Shown here: piece by piece, positions 54,506 through 61,538 of the stretch | Numbering within the stretch: the stretch's first letter is position 1 | Layout: each line of letters begins with the position of its first letter | Origin: an uncultured Dehalococcoidia bacterium | GTDB taxonomy: Bacteria > Chloroflexota > Dehalococcoidia > Lucifugimonadales > UBA1123 | Length of the DNA stretch: 64,000 nt | Direction: 5' to 3' | Assembly (NCBI GenBank): GCA_951812505.1 | Contig: CATOSI010000002.1 | Location: 248,001 to 312,000 of the forward strand | Translations under genes and position numbers: made by a program | Notes under the pieces: generated by a model | Told to the model about the DNA's origin: nothing | Databases searched by the model: none | Seen by the model: the letters and a program-made list of their open reading frames with translations, nothing else

Positions 54506-56599
54506 TCATTTCTCGATCCTCACCGCGCACACCTTGAACTCCGGCATCCGGCTTATGGGGTCGAGCGCGGGATTCGTGAGCCTGTTCGCTGCCTGGCGAC
54601 CACCCCAGTGGAACGGCACGAAGACCGTGTCATGCCGGATACCCGCGCTTATTCGCACTGTGAACTCGGCGGCGCCGCGCCGGGTGGTCAGGAATACGCG
54701 CTCTCCGTCGTTGAGACCGTAGGACCGGGCCGTGGATGGATGGATCTCGGCGCATGGATTCGGCTCCACGCGGCGCAGGTCTTCTATCCTGCGAGTCTGG
54801 GTGCCGGACTGGTACTGCGCCATGACGCGCCCGGTCGTCAGAAAGAGCGGGTACTCGGTATCCGGCATCTCGGCGGACAGACTGTATCCTGTCGAATGGA
54901 ACCTGGCGCGTCCGTCGGAAGTCGGGAAGCTGTCCACGAACATCCTCGGAGTGCCCGGATGCGACTCGTCGGGGCACGGCCAGAACACGCCCTCCGACTT
55001 CTCTATCCTCTCGTAGGTGATTCCCGAATAGTCCGCCGGGCCTCCCGCGCTGGCGCGTCTCAGTTCGTCGAAGACATCTGCGGGGCTCTCAAAATCGAAA
55101 TACTGACCTCTTCCCAGGCGTTGGGCGAGTTCGCGCAGTATTTCCAGTTCGTCTCTAGCGCCTGGCACAGGGTCGAACGCGCGACGCCGCAGTATGACCC
55201 TGCCCTCCAGGTTGGTCATCGTGCCTTCCTCTTCCGCCCACTGCGCCGTCGGCAGAACCACGTCCGCCAACTCCGCCGTCTCCGACAGGAAGAAGTCCCC
55301 GACTACCAGAAAGTCCAGGGAACGCAGCTTCGCCTCCACGTTTATGACGTTCGGCGCGGACACAGCTACGTTTGAGCCGAATACCATCAGCGAGCGCACG
55401 TTGCCATCCTGTCCCAGCGAGTCCAGCAGCTCATACGCGGACGGCCCGGGCATCGGCAGTTCGGACTCCGGCACTCCCCACACGTCGGAAACGTAGCGAC
55501 GAGCGTCGGGATCGGCGAGCAGCCTGTAACCGGGCAGCTGGTCCGACTTCTGGCCGTGTTCGCGTCCACCCTGGCCGTTCCCCTGACCCGTAAGACAGCC
55601 GTATCCGCTGTTCCGCCTGCCCACCAGACCGAGTGCGAGTGCGATGTTTATATAGGAGAGTGTGTTGTTGACACCCTGGGCCTGCTGCTCCGCGCCCCTG
55701 GCTGTCAGTATCATCGCCGAAGAGCGCGACTCTCCCAGCATCCGCGCCGCGCGTACTATCTGCGCCTCCGGGACACCCGTGATGCGCTCCACTCTGCCCG
55801 GCCAGTAAGACCCCGAACTCGCCTTCGCAAGCTCGAAGTCCGCCGTGCGTTCTCTTATGTAGTCTTCGTCTATCAGACCCTCCACGATCATGACGTGGAG
55901 CAGCCCGTTCGCAAGCGCGGCGTCAGTGCCGGGAGTGAGTTGCAGGTGTAGGTCGGCCCTCTGCGCCGTGGGCGTCAGACGCGGGTCCGCGACTATCAGC
56001 CTGCCACCCACCTCCTGCTGACGTCCGAAATACTGCATTATCGGCGGCATCGTTTCAGCGGCATTGCTCCCAACGAGCAGAATAGTCTTTGCGCCGGCTA
56101 TATCCTCCACAGGGAAAGGGAGTCCCCTGTCAACCCCGAACGCCCTGATTGACGCCCCCGCCGCCGATGACATGCAGAACCGCCCGTTATAGTCAATGTT
56201 GGGCGTCCTGAGTGCGACCCGGGCGAACTTACCCATCAGGTAGGCCTTCTCATTCGTCAGAGAGCCGCCCCCGAACATCCCGACCGATTCTGGCCCGTAC
56301 TTTGCCTGGGAGTCCCGGATCGCTTCCTCGATGCGGTCCATCGCCGCTTCCCAGCTTGCGGTCCGCAACTGACCGTCCGACGTGCGAATCAGGGGAATGC
56401 GCAGCCGTTCGGGGTGGGAGAGCGCTTCCGCCGCCGTCCACCCTTTGAGACAGAGCGCGCCCTTGTTGACCGGAAAGTCCTCGTTGCCGACGACTATCGC
56501 CTGCTCAGGCTCGCCCGATATGTTCATCCCGCACTGGAACGCGCAGTAGGGGCAGTGCGTCTGGGTGGTCTTTGAGGGCGTCTGAATCTGTGTGCTCAT
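54506..56599 (-). CDS. nasA: assimilatory nitrate reductase catalytic subunit
   Basis: Molybdopterin oxidoreductase, 697 residues. The N-terminal 4Fe-4S ligands are in HCPYCAFQCGMN and GALCLKGW; the Mo site has Cys in YNGRFCMSSAAGASI; molybdopterin-binding motifs include TLSYINIALALGLVGRRNSG and FLTTGRVMAQYQSGTQTRR. No Tat signal, so it is cytoplasmic, as expected for assimilation. Its place upstream of nirB sets the substrate as nitrate rather than formate. It is the first gene of the operon, and its AUG lies in the arm of an inverted repeat. Confidence 0.93.
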   Translation of the reverse strand: MSTQIQTPSKTTQTHCPYCAFQCGMNISGEPEQAIVVGNEDFPVNKGALCLKGWTAAEALSHPERLRIPLIRTSDGQLRTASWEAAMDRIEEAIRDSQAKYGPESVGMFGGGSLTNEKAYLMGKFARVALRTPNIDYNGRFCMSSAAGASIRAFGVDRGLPFPVEDIAGAKTILLVGSNAAETMPPIMQYFGRQQEVGGRLIVADPRLTPTAQRADLHLQLTPGTDAALANGLLHVMIVEGLIDEDYIRERTADFELAKASSGSYWPGRVERITGVPEAQIVRAARMLGESRSSAMILTARGAEQQAQGVNNTLSYINIALALGLVGRRNSGYGCLTGQGNGQGGREHGQKSDQLPGYRLLADPDARRYVSDVWGVPESELPMPGPSAYELLDSLGQDGNVRSLMVFGSNVAVSAPNVINVEAKLRSLDFLVVGDFFLSETAELADVVLPTAQWAEEEGTMTNLEGRVILRRRAFDPVPGARDELEILRELAQRLGRGQYFDFESPADVFDELRRASAGGPADYSGITYERIEKSEGVFWPCPDESHPGTPRMFVDSFPTSDGRARFHSTGYSLSAEMPDTEYPLFLTTGRVMAQYQSGTQTRRIEDLRRVEPNPCAEIHPSTARSYGLNDGERVFLTTRRGAAEFTVRISAGIRHDTVFVPFHWGGRQAANRLTNPALDPISRMPEFKVCAVRIEK

Positions 56600-59805: not shown

Positions 59806-59959
59806 TGTCCGATTGTTTACTCCGCGCGAATTTGGGACAGGTGTTCAGTTACCCGTTCACTCAGGATACGGAGGATGGCAGGATTGAGTCAAGCACGCCC
59901 ATTGACCCGGCTCGATCCTGAAGCGTAAGATTATTTAATACTGTCCAGGGGGTGGGTAT

Positions 59960-60217
59960 ATGGCAGAGAACGGACTCAAGATACGTCTGGAGTATTGTCA
60001 GCATTGAGGCCATGCTCTGCGCGCCGCCTGGATGGCGGGCGAGGCCCTGAGCCGCACTGGAGAGCACATCTCCGAATTCAACCTGATTCCCAGCGTACAC
60101 GGCATGTTCCATATTTATGTGAACGACGAACTGGTGGCTTCACACCAGCATCTGCCCGACGCCCACCTGTTCCCGGACCTCGAGGATATGATGGCCGCTA
60201 TCCTGTCCCGGATCTGA
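59960..60217 (+). CDS. SelW/Rdx-family selenoprotein with in-frame UGA
   Basis: From ATG 59960 (GGGGGTG upstream) codon 16 is TGA (60005-60007). Read as Sec, the 85-residue protein starts MAENGLKIRLEYCQHUGHAL: beta-strand, then CxxU (Cys13, Sec16) exactly where Rdx proteins (SelW, SelT, SelH) have their redox site. The rest, SVHGMFHIYVNDELVASHQH and LFPDLEDMMAAILSRI, matches the SelW GxFxVxVNGxLVxS...FPDxEDI pattern. Length fits SelW. Ordinary gene calls begin at Met25 and lose the active site. It is a probable thiol/selenol oxidoreductase. A Cys-to-stop mutation is the alternative. Confidence 0.8.
60008..60046 (+). promoter_or_regulatory. bacterial SECIS-like hairpin after the UGA
   Basis: CGC(G)CCGCC (60020-60028) pairs with GGCGGGCG (60034-60041), with one bulged G and the loop TGGAT (60029-60033). 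GGCC at 60008-60011 can pair with GGCC at 60043-60046. The loop starts 22 bases after the UGA and has G as its second base, as in bacterial SECIS elements read by SelB. Confidence 0.65.
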
Positions 60218-60395
60218 AGACCATCCCAAACAGCCCCGATGTCATAGTAAACAAGTCAGGACGGTCAGCGCTGGGTCGCAGGCTCAGACTCTAAGCAATC
60301 ACACCAGATAAGGGTGAAGGCTTAGCCTTCCTTGAAGCCCCAAACGGAGCCTTAGTACATTCATCCAACATCCCGCAGGCGGAGGTTTTGCAGCT

Positions 60396-61538
60396 ATGGT
60401 GACTTCACACCGGAGAGAACTTCGACGAGTATATGGCTTCGACGAGGTCGCAATCGCGCCCGGCTCGATCACGATCAACCCTGAACTCACCAGCACCGAT
60501 TTCTCAGTGGACGGCATAACCATCTCGACCCCCGTCCTGGGCGGAGCGATGGACGCGGTATCCTCCCCAAGTTTCGTGGGAGCGATGGACAGGCTTGGCG
60601 GAATGGCCGTAACCAACATGGAAGGCGTCCACAGCCGCTACGAAGACTCTCAGGGCGTAATCGCCGAGATAGTCGAAACCCCGCAGGCTAAGGTGACCTC
60701 CGTACTCCAGAAGGTTTACTCCGCCCCGCTTCGAGAGGAGCTTATCGGAAAGCGGGTCGAGGAGATAAAGGAAAGCGGCGCGAAGTGCGCCGTTTCGTTT
60801 ACCCCCGCGACCACCAAGAAACTCGCCCCGCTCGCCGCCGAGGCCGGAGCGGACGTAATCGTCGTACAGTCCACCGTCACCACCGCGCGCCACATATCCA
60901 AGAGCCAGCGCGGACTACGATTCCCCGAACTTCTGGAACTCGTCAACGTACCCGTAATCGTCGGCAACTGCGTCAGCTACGAAGTCGCCCTCGAGCTCAT
61001 GACCACCGGCATACACGGCGTCCTCGTCGGAGTCGGACCCGGCGCAGCCTGCACCACGCGCGAGGTAACCGGAGTCGGCATCCCCCAGGTAACCGCAACG
61101 ATGGACACCGCCGCCGCCAGGGACGAGTACTTCGACCGAACCGGACGCTACGTCCCGATCATCACCGACGGAGGCATACGCACTGGCGGAGACCTGTGCA
61201 AGGCCATCGCCTCTGGCGCCGACGCCGTCATGATCGGAACTCCTCTAGCTCAGTCCGAAGAAGCCCCGGGCGGCGGCTACAACTGGGGCATGGCGAATCC
61301 CGATCCCAACCTGCCGCGAGGCACCCGCGTCAACGTGGGCGTCAAGGGAACCCTCGAGCAGATACTCTTCGGCCCAAGCTCCGTCACCGACGGTACCCAG
61401 AACCTCGTCGGCGCGCTCAACATCTGCCTGGGCATGGTCGGAGCCGAGAACATCCGCGAAATGCACGAGGTCGCCGAAGTCGTCGTAGCTCCCTCCATCA
61501 AGACCGAGGGCAAGCACTACCAGCTCGGCCTGGAATAG
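60396..61538 (+). CDS. guaB: GuaB3-type IMP dehydrogenase
   Basis: 380 residues without CBS domains, the GuaB3 type. The barrel has GGAMDAVSSPSFVGAMDRLG, VPVIVGNCVSYEVALELMTT, the catalytic Cys loop GVGPGAACTTREVTGVGIPQ, and PIITDGGIRTGGDLCKAIAS with GADAVMIGTPLAQSEEAPGG. It oxidises IMP to XMP with NAD for GTP synthesis, or is a paralogue of the main enzyme. GGAGG lies 10 bases before ATG 60396. The leader holds a small hairpin (60316-60330). Confidence 0.92.
   Translation: MVTSHRRELRRVYGFDEVAIAPGSITINPELTSTDFSVDGITISTPVLGGAMDAVSSPSFVGAMDRLGGMAVTNMEGVHSRYEDSQGVIAEIVETPQAKVTSVLQKVYSAPLREELIGKRVEEIKESGAKCAVSFTPATTKKLAPLAAEAGADVIVVQSTVTTARHISKSQRGLRFPELLELVNVPVIVGNCVSYEVALELMTTGIHGVLVGVGPGAACTTREVTGVGIPQVTATMDTAAARDEYFDRTGRYVPIITDGGIRTGGDLCKAIASGADAVMIGTPLAQSEEAPGGGYNWGMANPDPNLPRGTRVNVGVKGTLEQILFGPSSVTDGTQNLVGALNICLGMVGAENIREMHEVAEVVVAPSIKTEGKHYQLGLE

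Follow-up and report, generated by a model that had tools for sequence, protein, structure and literature searches.

At positions 59960-60217 of the 64,000-nucleotide stretch of DNA from an uncultured Chloroflexota bacterium analyzed here, referred to as the window, a reading frame carries a TGA as its 16th codon, which raises the question of whether this codon is read as selenocysteine (Sec) and whether the locus is a functional gene of the SelW/Rdx family. We consider it highly probable that it is such a gene, with UGA 60005 predicted to be read as Sec. The observation of a UGA-encoded SelW-like selenoprotein, made in an earlier note on this DNA, is confirmed, and its interpretation is supported by the evidence reviewed below. 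The reading frame and active site comprise the following features, all on the + strand.

59960-60217, + strand: selW-like (Rdx) selenoprotein gene of 85 residues with predicted Sec at position 16, based on the frame, profile matches, conservation and a structural model.
59947-59954, + strand: Shine-Dalgarno-like sequence AGGGGGTG, whose counterpart in the nearest relative (L031) is AGGAGGTG.
59996-60007, + strand: CxxU redox motif C13-Q-H-U16, with the UGA codon at 60005-60007.
60143-60178, + strand: His-rich C-terminal segment HQHLPDAHLFPD, residues 62-73, in which H62, H64, and H69 are invariant in the subgroup.

As had been claimed, a putative ribosome site precedes the ATG at 59960, with a gap of five bases, and the TGA is indeed the 16th codon of a frame that then stays open until the TGA at 60215-60217. 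The read-through product is MAENGLKIRLEYCQHUGHALRAAWMAGEALSRTGEHISEFNLIPSVHGMFHIYVNDELVASHQHLPDAHLFPDLEDMMAAILSRI, where YCQHU forms residues 12-16 and the UGA falls at the second redox position of CxxU. Under table 11, the only ORF listed at the locus has 61 amino acids, starts at ATG 60032 and is devoid of the active-site motif, in agreement with the view that normal gene calling misses the gene and that its active site is lost without read-through. That this truncated ORF is the only product made, as the presence of its ATG might suggest and as standard ORF finders would call it, is extremely improbable: relatives conserve the region ahead of ATG 60032, with both YC and Shine-Dalgarno-like sequences, neither Y12 nor C13 varies, and the fold would lose both its first strand and its active site.

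The read-through protein scores 51.5 bits (E 1.2e-13) with the Rdx profile PF10262, whose cut-off is 22.6, and 37.9 bits with the TIGR02174 CXXU_selWTH profile, whose cut-off is 34.2, with YCQHU located after the first strand, and the placing of CxxU at the redox-motif site of Rdx proteins is thus borne out. The Pfam alignment stops at residue 63 of 85, the remaining 22 C-terminal residues being divergent, because the C-terminal part HQHLPDAHLFPDLEDM is unlike the usual Rdx end. The statement that the downstream part matches the end of SelW needs to be qualified in this respect. An AlphaFold2 model, for which an 11-sequence family alignment served as input, has a mean pLDDT of 93.5 with the first strand at residues 6-13 and a helix at residues 18-36, and predicts a thioredoxin-like SelW fold for the product. 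The best PDB matches obtained with Foldseek are the SelW-related 2ojl and 2fa8 (E about 7e-7), and SelW-related entries from structural genomics (2ojl, 2fa8, 2obk, 3dex, 2p0g, 2oka) fill all the top places, thioredoxins ranking after them with far weaker E-values; a sequence search of the PDB returns the same SelW-related entries. The model has its fold in common with Cys-type Rdx structures from Agrobacterium (2fa8), Bordetella (2ojl), Vibrio (2p0g), Pseudomonas (2oka), and Streptomyces (3dex), with a TM of about 0.8, E down to 6.7e-7 and an identity of about 25-36%. Unlike the protein of the window, these have CxxC instead of CxxU (seen for 2fa8 and 3dex), hence no UGA, and a SECIS hairpin is not needed.

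Numerous relatives carry the same in-frame stop. A genome-contig scan retrieved 11 of them, with identities of 55-93%; each comes from a Dehalococcoidia or Chloroflexi MAG and has the TGA in C-x-x-TGA. In an order-level survey of 250 genomes, 26 full-length matches, among them the copy in the window, score over 140 bits; every one of them has exactly one internal stop, a TGA, and those that were read codon by codon show this TGA in C-x-x-TGA. Among 400 genomes drawn from the phylum, the next best match reaches only 58 bits, and the subgroup therefore looks largely confined to the order. Downstream of the TGA the median pairwise dN/dS is 0.16, i.e., purifying selection acts on this part, and upstream of it the median is 0.40, a value obtained from only 10 codons. 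The decay across the frame in relatives that the earlier note had named as counter-evidence is not seen. A Cys-type selW gene killed by a nonsense mutation, or a sequencing error at the codon, would also leave an in-frame stop, and the frameshifts found elsewhere in the gene in two relatives could be taken in favor of a pseudogene; however, the single TGA of all strong matches, its persistence in the aligned set even where protein identity to the window copy drops to 57%, and the selection acting downstream leave this explanation with next to no probability; a TGA that is retained in different genera and families refutes it as a general explanation. As regards the frameshifts themselves, they lie mid-gene in L111 (same genus) and in L113/L041, with the UGA and the hairpin upstream intact, and may reflect either assembly errors or decay.

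A hairpin lies just downstream of the putative Sec codon and is listed here as its core and with its lower extension.

60024-60038, + strand: core SECIS-like hairpin with a 5-bp stem, the apical loop UGGAU at 60029-60033 and a synonymous compensatory pair at 60025/60037.
60020-60041, + strand: the hairpin with its lower extension, in which 60020-60022 are paired with 60039-60041; this extension is variable among relatives.

With the stem CCGCC / GGCGG and the loop TGGAT, whose first G lies 22 nt past the UGA, the geometry matches the hairpin that had been proposed, with a G in its apical loop 22 bases after the UGA. The RNA fold suggested as a check did not lend it weight, the single-sequence fold energy being unexceptional and not significant (z -0.83), so that the evidence for the hairpin is covariation and not energy; an Rfam search of 59900-60300 gave no family match. 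Covariation was assessed in an alignment of 45 nt from the TGA onward, including 31 UGA-type sequences (28 distinct), in which the stem corresponds to columns 20-24/30-34 and the loop UGGAU is invariant. Among the 28 distinct sequences, pair 21/33 is CG in 14, GC in 7 and UA in 5, the 2 unpaired ones having a C.C mismatch. Pairing is observed in 92.9% of cells vs. 82.7% after shuffling (0 of 500 shuffles as high), and sliding the pairing partner lowers the proportion of paired cells to 16-74%, whereas in 23 Cys-type Rdx sequences 52.2% of cells pair, which is no better than shuffled. In the subgroup, positions 21 and 33 are the third bases of the Ala22 and Ala26 codons, and the changes are therefore silent in the protein; at Ala19, a fourfold site nearby, each of the four codons occurs. 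In the L099-L101 group, pair 24/30 has become UA instead of CG, alongside a Met-to-Ile change, and RNAalifold recovers the upper four stem pairs unaided. In the protein tree the GC state forms one clade (100/99) while all pair states jointly require at least six changes, which indicates few independent double changes, but more than one. The SECIS hairpin is thus supported by synonymous compensatory changes, and this silent covariation also argues against a pseudogene.

One relative has a cysteine codon at the site. L102 (G079) displays TGC, where L101, L103, and L104, of the same genus code, have TGA; it nests within the UGA clade of the protein tree, and its stem GCCGCCTGGATTGCAGG has lost pairing at two core positions. 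This is what a Sec-to-Cys replacement releasing the SECIS constraint should look like.

Recoding further depends on the Sec machinery, and the earlier note had proposed to look for selA, selB, selC, and selD. All four were found in the genome to which the window belongs, 3.8 Mb in 6 contigs, which was searched family by family, with a single match over the cut-off each for selA (545.3 bits), selB (341.5 bits, covering positions 2-580 of 581), selD (387.4 bits), and tRNA-Sec (66.2 bits, the gathering score being 47), the latter being read by ARAGORN as tRNA-SeC with anticodon UCA. Decoding of the UGA as another amino acid, either by a suppressor tRNA or under a reassigned code in which UGA means Trp or Cys, would result in the same frame, since the DNA itself does not specify the residue; yet the gene's own terminator is a TGA, the other long ORFs of the window terminate normally under table 11, the UCA-anticodon tRNA found in the part of the genome scanned for tRNAs is tRNA-Sec, selABCD is complete, and the UGA sits precisely at the Cys/Sec position of Rdx proteins, all of which make such decoding very unlikely. 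All three alternatives, namely a pseudogene, decoding as a different residue and initiation at the downstream ATG, were rejected.

Reading of the UGA as Sec would proceed as follows: SelB with Sec-tRNA(UCA) would bind the hairpin just 3' of UGA 60005, and the ribosome would for this reason insert Sec at the codon. The product would then fold like a thioredoxin, have Cys13-x-x-Sec16 as its redox center and, judging from what is known of the family, most likely act as a small thiol/selenol oxidoreductase through a selenenylsulfide cycle.

Other in-frame TGA codons occur in this genome. The selD gene (L026, G000:C1:893442-894365) harbors one near its N-terminus (SCAGUASKF), and is therefore also predicted to encode a selenoprotein. 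Besides the window gene, one more Rdx gene (L002, G000:C2:830250-830474) contains a TGA in frame; it has the motif YCVPU and resembles the window gene in the position of the UGA within the motif, but belongs to a different subgroup, with an ordinary Rdx end (KKEEDGQTPHLNRVKEL) and without the HxH segment. Scanning the 64-kb window for other read-through frames gave 43 candidates, none of them selenoprotein-like by eye.

The gene neighborhood gives little functional hint and indicates no pathway, either in the window or in relatives. purM lies upstream of the selW-like gene, and the gene directly downstream is the following.

60396-61538: GuaB3-type IMP dehydrogenase-related gene.

GuaB3 is likewise found downstream in L033, L034, and L041, and more distant relatives have different neighbors, e.g., a D-2-hydroxyacid dehydrogenase or an alpha/beta hydrolase. 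Elsewhere in the window (54506-56599, - strand), a molybdopterin oxidoreductase has as its best NCBIfam match the assimilatory nitrate reductase NasC (848 bits, below the cut-off of 1100).

Regarding novelty, the SelW-like CxxU family has been listed among prokaryotic selenoproteins since at least 2005-2006 (PMC1088965, PMC1794560), is well established (pfam10262; PMC1794560, PMC2398784, PMC9312934) and is the most abundant selenoprotein family in GOS data (PMC2398784). Chloroflexi selenoproteins totaled three in a 2006 survey (PMC1794560). Among the papers searched, no description of SelW-like selenoproteins in this order was found, nor any report linking selenoproteins with SAR202, a group that this lineage is guessed to resemble. 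The earlier claim of novelty was overstated, since the gene is an added member of a known family and not a new kind. With this family it shares the Rdx fold and sequence, CxxU with a predicted UGA-encoded Sec, a SECIS-like hairpin just downstream with a G in the apical loop, and a host that likewise has selABCD; it differs in its C-terminal third, where a His-rich HxH...DAHxFPD segment replaces the usual Rdx end. The window gene is a member of a Sec-only Rdx subgroup with this conserved His-rich end, and five histidines (H18, H47, H62, H64, H69) are invariant in the subgroup. A role for them in metal or substrate binding is speculation, and it seems rather doubtful that in this subgroup, found largely in this Dehalococcoidia order, they bind a metal or ligand together with CxxU for a chemistry other than that of SelW.

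As plain ORF calling drops the active site, such genomes should be annotated with the Sec reading included. With this gene, a large lineage of uncultured bacteria gains a well-supported selenoprotein, and the locus offers a clean case of a coding-region SECIS hairpin backed by synonymous covariation, together with a natural Sec-to-Cys replacement that shows the accompanying decay of the hairpin.
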